This document shows, in pieces, positions 10,325-27,273 of a stretch of 47,490 nt of DNA (position 1 is the first letter of the stretch; every line of letters begins with the position of its first letter). Source of the stretch: Nitrososphaerota archaeon (GTDB lineage: Archaea > Thermoproteota > Nitrososphaeria > Nitrososphaerales > Nitrosopumilaceae); NCBI GenBank assembly GCA_021325595.1, contig JAJPGX010000001.1, positions 1-47,490 on the forward strand, in the 5' to 3' direction. The notes under the pieces were generated by a model. The model saw only the letters and a list, made by a program, of their open reading frames with translations. It searched no databases and had not been told where the DNA came from. Position numbers and translations under genes: made by a program.

Positions 10325-10343
10325 CCTACGCCAATTTTTTAAA
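10325..10343 (+). promoter_or_regulatory. Shared promoter element, operon B
   Basis: CCTACGCCAATTTTTTAAA, with CCAGTAC following at 10354-10360 as in operons A and E. The T-tract begins 32 nt before the ATG at 10367, which decides that start over the in-frame ATG at 10346, which would sit almost on the TATA box. Confidence 0.7.
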
Positions 10344-13017: not shown

Positions 13018-13035
13018 CTACACCACTTTTTTAAA
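13018..13035 (+). promoter_or_regulatory. Shared promoter element, operon C
   Basis: CTACACCACTTTTTTAAA, T-tract 35 nt before the ATG at 13062. It is identical to the operon E element over 22 bp including the upstream AATT. Confidence 0.72.
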
Positions 13036-16202: not shown

Positions 16203-16220
16203 CTACGTCAGTTTTTTAAA
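16203..16220 (+). promoter_or_regulatory. Shared promoter element, operon D
   Basis: CTACGTCAGTTTTTTAAA, T-tract 25 nt before the ATG at 16237. This is the shortest spacing of the set, implying a strictly leaderless transcript. Confidence 0.7.
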
Positions 16221-22058: not shown

Positions 22059-22076
22059 CTACACCACTTTTTTAAA
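22059..22076 (+). promoter_or_regulatory. Shared promoter element, operon E
   Basis: CTACACCACTTTTTTAAA, followed by ATCCAGTACAATTC at 22085-22098, which also follows the operon B element. The T-tract lies 35 nt before the GTG at 22103 and supports that unusual start. Confidence 0.72.
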
Positions 22077-23298: not shown

Positions 23299-23616
23299 TC
23301 ATCTCATTTTTGCAAGATGTGCCTCTGCTTTCTTTGCTCTTACAACAAACGCGACAAAGATTCCGCCAAACACTGCTCCTGATATTATTGATGCACCAAG
23401 TACCCCGTTTACATCAAGGTATGGAGTGCCAGAGCCCTGCCCAGGATTATCTTGTACCTCCTTGATTCTTTCCCGGGCAATTTTTAGAGTCTCCTCAAGT
23501 GTCATCGGGTTTGTTGGATTTGGCGGATATGTCTGTGCAAAAGCAAGCGGTGCCAGTGTTGTTGCTGCAACAAAGGCAAACAGTGTGCCTGACAACAGGA
23601 TTTTTTTGTCTGTCAT
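23299..23616 (-). CDS. Small exported membrane protein, partner of 23715 regulator
   Basis: The 105-residue product has a signal peptide (1-27, ending LAFAQ). An outward segment (28-68) contains TLEETLKIARERIKEV followed by GSGT. A membrane helix (about 71-92) and a basic cytoplasmic end follow. The 26-residue outer segment aligns without gaps to the outer part of the divergently encoded regulator (12 of 26 identical). The genes share a 98-bp control region with a perfect inverted repeat. A ligand, sensor or competitor role for that regulator is inferred. Confidence 0.75.
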   Translation of the reverse strand: MTDKKILLSGTLFAFVAATTLAPLAFAQTYPPNPTNPMTLEETLKIARERIKEVQDNPGQGSGTPYLDVNGVLGASIISGAVFGGIFVAFVVRAKKAEAHLAKMR

Positions 23617-23647
23617 GATTTACAATATGGCAATTTTGCTTTTAGCG

Positions 23648-23673
23648 TTTGATGAAAGTAGAATTTCATCAAA
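23648..23673. promoter_or_regulatory. 26-bp inverted repeat between divergent genes (operator)
   Basis: TTTGATGAAA and TTTCATCAAA form perfect 10-bp arms around GTAGAA. The site lies between the two divergent TATA-like boxes (GCTAAAAG leftward, ACATATTA rightward), so one bound regulator could control both genes. The half-site recurs at 24519. Confidence 0.7.
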
Positions 23674-23714
23674 AGTCTTACATATTACAAATGAGCTATT
23701 ATGGTATATTTATC

Positions 23715-24500
23715 ATGGTTCCAGAAAACACAAGACAACCAATAGCAGAACGAGTCAGCATCTATGACACTGACGATGATAAACTAAGGGCACTAGGAGA
23801 AGTACTGATAACGGATGCAAGTAGAAAAATTCTAAAGTTATTGTTTGAGCAAACCCTTACAGCAAACGAGATTGCAACAAGAACAGGATTCTCACTGCAA
23901 CTTGTACGATACCATGTCAAAAAAATGCAGGATGTAAATTTAATCGAGATAGCAAAGATTGGCAAGAACACAAAATCGCACGACATGAAATACTATTCTG
24001 CAACAAAGTTTGCAATTGTCATTGTTCCTTCCAAGTTTTCCGAAAAGACAAAGTCAAGCAAGTCACTGTTTAGGTCATTTAGCTCAATTTATCGACTGGG
24101 AGTAATTGGAATTGCAACAGTAGGATCTTGGTTTGCAACAGTATCACTGCAGGGAACAGGACAAGTATCTGACATGTCAAAAGGAGTTACAGATGCAACA
24201 GGCGGGGGCGGATATACAAGCTACAATCCGTTTTACAACGCAGTAGGAGGACCATATTCAGGTGACGGAGGAATTGGTTCTGGCGCATCACTTGAAGAGA
24301 TGCTTAAGCTTGCACGGGAAAAAGTTTCTATTGCGGCCCAAACCCAACATGCAGGATCTGGAACGTCATTTTTCAACGGCTCTCCGCCTGACTTTTTCTG
24401 GCCACTTGTGATTGCAATGTCTGTGTTGGCATTTGGGCTTTCAATTGAGCTTGTTTTGCGCGTACTCAAAATCAAAAAAATAGAACAAAACACAGATTAG
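23715..24500 (+). CDS. Membrane-anchored winged-helix regulator
   Basis: The ATG at 23715 is chosen because a TATA-like box (ACATATTA, about 23679) lies about 30 nt upstream; earlier in-frame ATGs would sit inside the operator. The 261-residue product has an ArsR-type winged helix (about 30-100; LTANEIATRTGFSLQLVRYH), a basic linker, a membrane helix (127-146), a Gly-rich outer segment with SLEEMLKLAREKV and GSGT (191-218), and a second helix (228-250). A DNA-binding domain tied to the membrane with an external segment suggests one-component transmembrane signalling. It likely binds the inverted repeat upstream and the half-site before 24559. Confidence 0.85.
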   Translation: MVPENTRQPIAERVSIYDTDDDKLRALGEVLITDASRKILKLLFEQTLTANEIATRTGFSLQLVRYHVKKMQDVNLIEIAKIGKNTKSHDMKYYSATKFAIVIVPSKFSEKTKSSKSLFRSFSSIYRLGVIGIATVGSWFATVSLQGTGQVSDMSKGVTDATGGGGYTSYNPFYNAVGGPYSGDGGIGSGASLEEMLKLAREKVSIAAQTQHAGSGTSFFNGSPPDFFWPLVIAMSVLAFGLSIELVLRVLKIKKIEQNTD

Positions 24501-24515
24501 GTTTTGGTAAAACCT
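24499..24515 (+). other. Hairpin at the end of the regulator gene
   Basis: AGGTTTT-GGT-AAAACCT is a perfect 7-bp stem with a 3-nt loop, overlapping the 23715 stop codon. No T-tract follows directly, so a terminator role is uncertain. Confidence 0.3.
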
Positions 24516-24518
24516 GAA

Positions 24519-24528
24519 TTTCATCAAA
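24519..24528 (+). promoter_or_regulatory. Second TTTCATCAAA site, upstream of 24559
   Basis: This exact copy of one arm of the 23648-23673 inverted repeat lies directly before the TATA-like GTTTTAAC (24529-24536) of the next gene. It is placed for control by the same regulator. Confidence 0.5.
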
Positions 24529-24558
24529 CGTTTTAACCTATTTTTGGTGTATGATGCT

Positions 24559-25125
24559 ATGAGACGTCTTCCGATTTTGATGTTTGCTGTCATGATCTCA
24601 ACAGTGATGATAATGCCGGCACATGCACAACTGTATTATGATGATAATACCCCATCTTCCATTCCAAGCTATGCACAACAGAATCAGCTAAAGATAACTG
24701 ACAAGGGCAGTCTCGCAATAGGGCTCTATACTGAGCCTGCAAACCCATCAACATCAAACCCCGTCACGCTTGAGCTAAGCTTTGAAGACAAGGATACCAG
24801 AACGCTCATACAAAATGTTGACTATGCTGTATCTATAACAAATGACACTAGTACCATATATCAAAGCCCTATATCGCATAGCTCTGCAGGTACTGCAAAG
24901 ATCCTATACCAATTCAAGGTACCAGGCAAATATGACGCAGTGATATCAGTAACGGCTATCAACTCCAAGCAGATGCCGAAAGAGAGTGCCTCGTTTTCTA
25001 TCAATGTCGATTCTTCCGCGGTTCCAGAGTTTCCACTTGCAGTTCCAATCTTCTTAATTGGTACGATATCGGTAATTGCATTTTACAGTATGAGATTCGG
25101 AAAGATGGGAAGAACAATCGCCTAG
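24559..25125 (+). CDS. Exported Ig-like protein with PEF sorting tail
   Basis: The ATG at 24559, about 28 nt after the TATA-like box, begins a clear signal peptide (MRRLPILMFAVMISTVMI, cleaved after AHA). Upstream TTG/GTG codons in frame are less likely. The 188-residue product has one Ig-like domain (LAIGLYTEPANPSTSNPVTL, about 55-150), then SAVPEFPLAVP, a membrane helix and a basic end: a PEF-type C-terminal anchor. The possible operator TTTCATCAAA before its promoter suggests control by the membrane-bound regulator upstream. Confidence 0.8.
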   Translation: MRRLPILMFAVMISTVMIMPAHAQLYYDDNTPSSIPSYAQQNQLKITDKGSLAIGLYTEPANPSTSNPVTLELSFEDKDTRTLIQNVDYAVSITNDTSTIYQSPISHSSAGTAKILYQFKVPGKYDAVISVTAINSKQMPKESASFSINVDSSAVPEFPLAVPIFLIGTISVIAFYSMRFGKMGRTIA

Positions 25126-25130
25126 AGAAA

Positions 25131-25146
25131 TCGCCAATTTTTTAAA
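25131..25146 (+). promoter_or_regulatory. Partial shared promoter element, operon F
   Basis: TCGCCAATTTTTTAAA matches the operon B element from CGCCA onward (CGCCAATTTTTTAAA, 15 bases) but lacks the CTA. The T-tract is 31 nt before the TTG at 25169, supporting that start. Confidence 0.6.
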
Positions 25147-25168: not shown

Positions 25169-25684
25169 TTGTTCTACTTAGCTTCCATACTGGGTAGTTT
25201 TCCACTACCCAAAACATTTGAAATAAAATCGTGGAATGATGAGAATGTCATTAACTCTATTAAGGAAAAATACCACTCACGAATTTTGAATGAGGATATG
25301 CTAGTTGTGATGGTTCTAGGCAACGTAATTCCTACAAACACAACACTCATGGACGGAAAAACCAAATCCTATTCTGTTATTTTCGATGTTCTGCTTTTTA
25401 TTCCAAAAATCAGAGAAATTATACCATCATCAGTTAGTCAAATCAGGGAATCAGACATGGTTGCCAGGATAGGTTCCTTTGATGCATATGTGCATAAATC
25501 ACAAATACTTGACGGAAAATCAAAAATAGATTTCATTAATCAAACTGTAACTTCAAGTAACAAGTCAATTAGAGTTGGGACCATTATTCGTGGTAAGATT
25601 ACATCGGTATCATTTCCGCATACAGGACCGATAAAGATCGGTATGACTTGTGCTCAACCGTATCTGGGTGTAATAGACGAATGA
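25169..25684 (+). CDS. Diverged paralogue of RNA polymerase subunit Rpo7 (RpoE')
   Basis: The TTG start gives MFYLASILGSFPLPKTF, aligning with the start of archaeal Rpo7. The 171-residue product has the N-terminal RNP-like domain (IKEKYHSRILNEDMLVVMVL) and an S1/OB domain (about 80-165; MVARIGSFDAYVHKSQILDG, then VGTIIRGKITSVSF). It ends IGMTCAQPYLG, the Rpo7 hallmark (usually T-R-Q-P-x-L-G). Rpo7 forms the polymerase stalk with Rpo4, binds RNA and helps promoter opening. Sequence drift (Ala for Arg in TCAQP; loss of the usual GDGA segment) marks it as a second copy rather than the housekeeping one. It is read from the shared promoter and overlaps the next exported-protein gene by ATGA, which is an odd place for a core transcription gene. 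Confidence 0.85.
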   Translation: MFYLASILGSFPLPKTFEIKSWNDENVINSIKEKYHSRILNEDMLVVMVLGNVIPTNTTLMDGKTKSYSVIFDVLLFIPKIREIIPSSVSQIRESDMVARIGSFDAYVHKSQILDGKSKIDFINQTVTSSNKSIRVGTIIRGKITSVSFPHTGPIKIGMTCAQPYLGVIDE

Positions 25685-27273
25685 AAACTCTGTTTCTTTC
25701 AATAATTGTTTTTTCAGTATCTATCTTACTGATTGGTACATCAAATCAAGTCTTTGCACCCTGTCTTGTTGGCGTAACTAGCTGTGGTCCTCCTCCGGGA
25801 GTAACAGTTGTGGCAACCACTGACAGTCAGTTTTATGAAAAAAACGATACAATTACTGTACAAGGACAGGTCTATCTAGAAAACTATACAAAACCTGTTA
25901 CAATCCAAGTTGTAAATCCTAACAACACAACAATACAAAGCATTGACGTACCAGTAAATAATGAAACATTTGGTACAAAGATCACAGCAAATTTTACCAA
26001 AACTGGAATGTATCAGATTGTCACTTGTGTGCAAAATTGGTGCAATAGGTCATACATCAAATTTGTCTCAGAACCATACAGATTAACTGCTGGTAGTACA
26101 GACTTTCTTATTAATTACAAAAGTTTTGCAGATCTTGTAGGGATGGAAGCTGATGTCAACAGTCAAGCATTGCGAGTACACATAACTAACGCAACAGCTC
26201 AAGGGCTACAGTTTGTAATTACACTTCCAAGAGAATTGATTGATTCAAGAGGGTATGATGGAAATGATGCAAGCTTTAGGGTTTGGATTGGCATGCACCA
26301 ACCTGACAAATACATGGCTCCTGCAAACTTTACACAAATAACATCAAATGGTAAATCCAGAACACTTGCAATTGACATACCATATGAGCCAGTTTCAAAT
26401 TCGAACGGCATATGGGATTTCAAAATCATGTCTGCAGATGTTGCATCAGGACCTGGAGTATCTAACGAATCTCCCCTCAAGTTATTCAGACTAGGGATGA
26501 CAATAGATCAGATACACTGCCAAAAAGATTTTGTGCTGATTATAAAATCTGAAGATGGCTCCCCAGCATGTACTTCATCAGAAACTGCACAAATATTGAT
26601 ACAAAGAGGATGGGGACATGCACTTGACACGGGAGTTTCTGTAACACTTAGAGAAGGACAAAGGGACGGACCATTGCTTGTGCAAAAGGTTCTGCAAGAC
26701 AGCATACAGGGATTAAATTTCAGAGAGTATCCACTTGCAACAAATGTTGGCATGCCAGTGACTCTGCACATAGGTGACACTGCAAGCAATGGATGCACTG
26801 TTGAGCTGACACTTGTAAAGATAAACAACGATACTGCAACGTTTCTAAAAAAAGAATATCACAACAAACCATGCCCCATATGCCTTTCTGAAGATACCGT
26901 AATTGATACGCCAAATGGACGGGTCAACATCAAAGACCTAAAAGTTGGAATGAGTGTATTTACACAAGATGATTCTGGCAAGAAGCAAATTGTCACCATA
27001 TCAAAGACTGGAAAGACTCTAACTCTTCCAGGGCACAAGATGGTTCATCTCATTTTAGATGATAACCGAGAACTATACGTATCTCAGAATCATCCAACGG
27101 CAGATGGAAGATTGTTTGGTAAACTAGCTCTAGGAGACATTATTGATGGCTCTAAAATAAAAAGCACAGAACTGGTTTCATACAATGGAACCTATACCTA
27201 TGACATTTTACCATCAGGTGGTACGGGATTTTACTGGGCAAATGGAATTCTTGCTGGAAGCACACTCAAATGA
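25681..27273 (+). CDS. Exported PACV protein with C-terminal Hint (autoprocessing) domain
   Basis: The ATG at 25681, overlapping the Rpo7-like stop, gives MKTLFLSIIVF and a signal peptide; the longer frame has no leader. The 530-residue product has an Ig-like domain (about 35-130), an LPR-type beta domain (FVITLPRELIDSR, about 140-255) and PACV (about 264-312; PACT variant). A further beta domain precedes a Hint domain (about 401-530) starting CLSEDTVIDTPNG with SQNHPT as block B. Hint domains cleave by an N-S acyl shift at the first Cys. The C-terminal end (WANGILAGSTLK) lacks the His-Asn pair for splicing, so cleavage or ester transfer, not protein splicing, is expected. Confidence 0.82.
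   Translation: MKTLFLSIIVFSVSILLIGTSNQVFAPCLVGVTSCGPPPGVTVVATTDSQFYEKNDTITVQGQVYLENYTKPVTIQVVNPNNTTIQSIDVPVNNETFGTKITANFTKTGMYQIVTCVQNWCNRSYIKFVSEPYRLTAGSTDFLINYKSFADLVGMEADVNSQALRVHITNATAQGLQFVITLPRELIDSRGYDGNDASFRVWIGMHQPDKYMAPANFTQITSNGKSRTLAIDIPYEPVSNSNGIWDFKIMSADVASGPGVSNESPLKLFRLGMTIDQIHCQKDFVLIIKSEDGSPACTSSETAQILIQRGWGHALDTGVSVTLREGQRDGPLLVQKVLQDSIQGLNFREYPLATNVGMPVTLHIGDTASNGCTVELTLVKINNDTATFLKKEYHNKPCPICLSEDTVIDTPNGRVNIKDLKVGMSVFTQDDSGKKQIVTISKTGKTLTLPGHKMVHLILDDNRELYVSQNHPTADGRLFGKLALGDIIDGSKIKSTELVSYNGTYTYDILPSGGTGFYWANGILAGSTLK

Follow-up and report, generated by a model that had tools for sequence, protein, structure and literature searches.

We identified a strongly diverged second copy of the RNA polymerase stalk subunit Rpo7 in Candidatus Nitrosotalea, a soil ammonia-oxidising archaeon. 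The gene lies in the window, i.e. the whole analyzed stretch of 47,490 nt, which is contig C45 of a 1.64-Mb genome (99.5% complete). Its identity as an Rpo7 paralogue and its origin by duplication within the Nitrosotalea lineage can be stated with high confidence. The role we lean towards, at somewhat less than even chances, is that of an accessory paralogue acting with Rpo4 as an altered or decoy stalk subunit. The features relevant to the analysis are listed in Table 1.

Table 1. The Rpo7 paralogue and associated features of the window
Feature	Coordinates	Strand	Basis or remark
Exact copy of the exported-operon promoter motif	10326..10343	+	16-nt identity with the promoter of the paralogue (CGCCAATTTTTTAAAG)
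Winged-HTH protein with membrane segments	23649..24500	+	Conserved in about half of the genus
Upstream exported protein	24544..25125	+	Orthologous genes in G012 and G027 (close relatives), where no Rpo7-like gene follows
Promoter-like element AATCGCCAATTTTTTAAA (BRE-like CGCCA + TATA-like box)	25129..25146	+	Partial match to CTACrCCAnTTTTTTAAA
Divergent Rpo7 (RNA polymerase stalk) paralogue, 171 aa, TTG start	25169..25684	+	Homology searches, alignment, predicted fold
Exported 530-aa protein (MKTLFL signal-like start, PAC(V) motif region, Hint_2)	25681..27273	+	4-nt overlap with the paralogue (ATGA)
TFB (TFIIB) paralogue, one of five in the genome	31977..32891	-	Context

The frame of the paralogue is full length and intact, with no internal stop. 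The other reading frames of the same interval contain 5 to 17 stops, and with this composition 170 open codons would arise by chance with a probability of ~5e-6. The original prediction regarded the product as an Rpo7 paralogue, and NCBIfam, PDB sequence matches and the predicted fold all bear this out. The top NCBIfam models are both Rpo7 (PRK08563, E 4.8e-25; rpoE, E 4.3e-15), and the match spans residues 22-169, covering both domains. The scores are nevertheless under the curated cut-offs (88.3 versus 143 bits for PRK08563 and 55.7 versus 124 bits for rpoE). Archaeal Rpo7 chains among the PDB sequences match residues 24-169 with E ~6e-16. Pfam by itself would miss the gene, because it gives no SHS2_Rpb7-N match and only a subthreshold S1 match (13 bits versus the cut-off of 22, E 0.14). 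The protein is 33% identical to the Rpo7 of its own genome. Contamination or misassembly was ruled out, since GC and GC3 are as in the neighbours and the flanking genes have Nitrosotalea orthologues. No membership of the gene in a defence system was detected.

A search for the canonical rpo7 had been set beforehand as a check able to refute the prediction, and it located this gene on another contig (G000:C34:9292-9843(-)), beside spt4. The window gene is therefore a genuine second copy. It lies outside the rpo7-spt4 neighbourhood, the Spt4 neighbour being present at the canonical gene only. The canonical copy scores 228.9 bits against the family model, compared to 87.8 bits for the window copy, and passes both the SHS2_Rpb7-N and S1 cut-offs of Pfam. 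Extra copies are very rare, and Rpo7 is single-copy in practically every surveyed genome, as had been assumed. In a set of 397 Thermoproteota genomes with completeness of at least 90%, two full-length Rpo7 matches occur in the window genome alone, and one further genome carries a 45-residue Rpo7 fragment. Within the genus (37 genomes), another diverged second Rpo7 occurs only in Centralia_MAG_109 (G010) and Centralia_MAG_78 (G026). Second copies in G304, G248 and G490 were not counted as diverged paralogues, being family-standard copies or a fragment. Orthologues of the window copy were found neither in 37 congeners, nor in 300 genomes of the class, nor in GTDB r220 contigs. Viral contigs, phages and plasmids likewise held no relatives of the gene, and a viral or plasmid origin was rejected on these grounds. 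We found no description of an archaeal Rpo7 paralogue in the literature searched.

The loss of key residues, also predicted, is extensive: of 75 columns with conservation of 95% or more across canonical Rpo7, the window protein keeps 31. By region, with domain borders defined in this analysis, it keeps 4/15 such columns in residues 1-55, 2/8 in the tip loop, 3/4 in the link and 22/48 in S1. Both phenylalanines of DFGAF are replaced (F95S and F98V), while H109, S111, Q112, D105 and the K/G/T/Q/P/L/G end are retained. The RNA-binding site of S1 includes Phe19, Phe22 and His34 (PMC6705787), to which F95, F98 and H109 would correspond according to our mapping. The AlphaFold model consists of two domains (pLDDT 83.6, pTM 0.57); the canonical control, modeled from nearly the same alignment, reached 89.0 and 0.73. 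Agreement of the structural prediction with Rpo7 was the other check fixed in advance, and the best PDB matches of the model are indeed archaeal Rpo7 chains (TM 0.76-0.82). This agreement is partly built in, because the input alignment was rich in canonical Rpo7. The protein should thus adopt the SHS2 + S1 two-domain fold of Rpo7. Overall, it resembles archaeal Rpo7 (RpoE1) in length up to the QPYLG end, the QPYLG motif itself, domain order, N-terminal register and fold. It differs in the sub-cut-off NCBIfam score, the unmatched Pfam N-domain, the missing lysine-rich C-terminal tail, the loss of F95, F98 and most N-domain invariants, and the genomic neighbourhood.

In the phylogenetic tree the window gene sits on a saturated branch. 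A clue to its origin is the loss of one residue between M and K close to the C-terminus (AM-K versus AMGK). The same deletion is present in the two Centralia paralogues, all 30 canonical Nitrosotalea copies and the copies of the sister genus; none of the other rows compared carries it. T138 and T152 are likewise genus-typical. Because all three features follow Nitrosotalea, we favor a duplication inside the lineage, and distant lateral transfer is disfavored. The housekeeping copy stayed almost unchanged while the window copy diverged very far; dS between them is ~2.2. The absence of a stop in 171 codons despite such divergence argues for selection during much of the gene's history. Having no detected orthologue, the gene could be drifting.

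The proposed TTG start is likely, since the N-terminus (MFYLASIL) aligns column for column and without a gap to MFSISTLT of canonical Rpo7. A non-ATG codon also opens the canonical rpo7 frame at the same place in several congeners. The start also fits a leaderless promoter, as 22 nt separate the TTG from the end of TTTTTTAAA (25138-25146). Judging from these sequence features, transcription of the gene is probably leaderless and driven by a variant of the exported-operon promoter. This promoter is bipartite in the exported-protein operons of Nitrosotalea, where CTACrCCAnTTTTTTAAA is followed by TCCAGTAC shortly ahead of the start codon; the downstream element is found in most members. With at most one mismatch, the motif has six sites in the genome, five of them ahead of the window's exported-protein operons. 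The sites recorded in the window are 728-745, 10326-10343, 13018-13035, 16203-16220 and 22059-22076, and further ones are L163:7544, L164:5245, L165:3087, L167:2634, L145:1050(-) and G000:C20:2085. Looser matches in the window number seven, which no shuffled window attained. The element ahead of the paralogue has three mismatches to the motif, all among the first bases. It retains the CrYCA-TATA core and lacks both the leading CTA and the downstream TCCAGTAC, and is therefore only a partial member of the class. TTTTTTAAA occurs 24 times in 249 kb of genus sequence, and CrYCA precedes it at fixed spacing in 10 of the 24 sites, including that of the window gene. Scans for sigma-70-type promoters and terminators gave nothing above chance. 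The motif also precedes exported-protein operons in several Nitrosotalea genomes without the window gene; it represents a promoter class of the whole genus that a dedicated TFB may recognise.

The paralogue had been described as the head of an exported-protein operon, coupled over 4 nt to a secreted Hint/PACV protein. It does head a gene pair with the exported protein, behind a promoter related in part to those of the neighbouring exported operons, and the 4-nt overlap is present. The Hint assignment also stands (Hint_2, 28.8 bits versus the cut-off of 28.4); the PACV motif reads PACT in this protein. The N-terminal 313 residues of the exported protein are 74% and 69% identical to proteins of G012 and G011, respectively. 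In both of these genomes a different exported-protein gene precedes the module, also with a 4-nt overlap, and DNA similarity to their modules begins at window position 25680. Where close relatives have the left-hand genes (23299-25125) in common with the window, the sequence that follows is unrelated and contains no Rpo7-like gene. The junction therefore resembles a recombination joint, so co-transcription need not imply joint function. The link to the exported-protein operon may be accidental, given the other upstream partners of the module in other species. Exported MKTL proteins are in general modular and shuffled between genomes (25681-27273, L163:6074-7486, L164:6655-8265), the same MKTL N-terminal module being joined to varied C-terminal modules (Hint; 22522-23274-like) and upstream genes.

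In archaea, Rpo4/7 makes contact with TFE and nascent RNA and supports both processivity and termination (PMC7289017). Since only one Rpo4 and one Rpo1 N-half were found in the genome, a stalk role would have to rely on the usual partners. We tentatively propose a decoy-stalk mechanism, in which the window protein would still pair with the only Rpo4. The resulting altered or decoy stalk would be impaired both in docking to the single RNA polymerase core and in gripping RNA, as suggested by the loss of F95 and F98 in S1 and of most N-domain invariants. When expressed, the protein would then reduce or modify stalk function, much as other archaeal factor paralogues have become inhibitors or modulators. 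One of these is Sulfolobus TFS4, a diverged TFS1 paralogue (34% identity) that inhibits RNAP (PMC5715097). Like the window gene, TFS4 is a diverged duplicate of a component of the transcription machinery and has lost key residues. However, it is a different protein, and its function was demonstrated by experiment, whereas that of the window gene is a proposal.

The missing docking-domain residues may also be taken to argue against any polymerase contact. In that case the protein, free of RNA polymerase, would be an S1-type RNA- or protein-binding factor, perhaps targeting the transcript of the gene pair it belongs to; a new RNA-binding role had also been raised in the original prediction. The N-domain, unrecognised by Pfam, is more eroded than S1, where H109, S111, Q112, D105 and the terminal motif persist. 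Yet both stacking phenylalanines of S1 are gone and the Pfam S1 match is marginal. RNA binding by the protein is thus putative, and we regard this explanation as doubtful. It is also conceivable, though unlikely, that the gene is a transient duplicate, an rpo7 copy recombined at the MKTL start of a shuffled module and having no selected function now. The joint at 25680, the alternative upstream genes in G012 and G011, the relatives without an Rpo7-like gene at this place and the restriction of the gene to one genome would all fit such hitch-hiking. What it explains less well is an intact frame and a fold signature kept after saturating synonymous divergence, as well as a regulon-type promoter of the gene's own. 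Both of these explanations are nevertheless close competitors of the decoy stalk.

According to the original prediction, a stalk variant under the regulon promoter could alter polymerase choice, that is, replace Rpo7 on polymerases transcribing the exported-protein operons. The promoter does have CGCCAATTTTTTAAAG in common with the regulon, and a TFB paralogue lies ~6 kb off. Moreover, specialised plant polymerases have diverged stalk paralogues; NRPE7 of Pol V is an Rpb7-family paralogue with unconserved core-interface residues (PMC10229537). However, NRPE7 has a matched specialised core (NRPE1), with no counterpart among the single Rpo1 N-half and Rpo4 found here. The residues expected to serve in docking and in RNA contact by S1 rank with the most eroded ones, the gene's own promoter is a partial match, and congeners have the promoter and the operons without the gene. 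The last point weakens the idea that the window gene selects the polymerase of the regulon, and we consider a regulon-specific stalk very improbable.

For an alternative stalk, the Centralia genomes offer a better candidate than the window gene does. Their extra Rpo7 (L059:6001-6525 in Centralia_MAG_78; L060:6001-6516 in Centralia_MAG_109) is better conserved, keeping 55 of the 75 near-invariant columns compared to 31, and passes the Pfam and NCBIfam cut-offs that the window protein does not. The two kinds share the genus, the AM-K deletion, the lack of the C-terminal tail and the lack of R in CRQP. They differ in locus, and the Centralia paralogue is conserved in two species, whereas the window gene is found in one genome. 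Between the two species the Centralia paralogue shows pN of 0.216 and pS of 0.772, while the canonical Rpo7 protein is identical over the compared stretch. The paralogue pair is thus under clear purifying selection, constrained but fast. For one origin of the window gene and the Centralia paralogues, the AU test gave p 0.50, with the window-gene branch saturated; 6 of the 31 jointly novel columns agree.

Extra Rpo7 genes of two kinds therefore occur in a single genus, and one kind evolves under purifying selection in two species. These genes make alternative stalks or stalk decoys testable in archaea (cf. NRPE7 and the Sulfolobus factor paralogue). That some Nitrosotalea make two alternative stalks, using a second Rpo7, a specialised promoter class and a shared Rpo4, seems to us quite unlikely. 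If true, the resulting polymerase variant would elongate and terminate differently, and archaea would provide an example of subunit-swapped polymerases. The extra Rpo7 of Centralia adjoins an uncharacterised gene and lies near a TFB paralogue. Elsewhere, the window starts inside the 3' end of a 23S rRNA gene (1-244), and an exported protein with a serpin domain (773-2575; 408 bits) is the first after a shared promoter. At 23299-24500, a small membrane protein and the winged-HTH membrane protein form a divergent pair that is jointly conserved in ~12 Nitrosotalea genomes.
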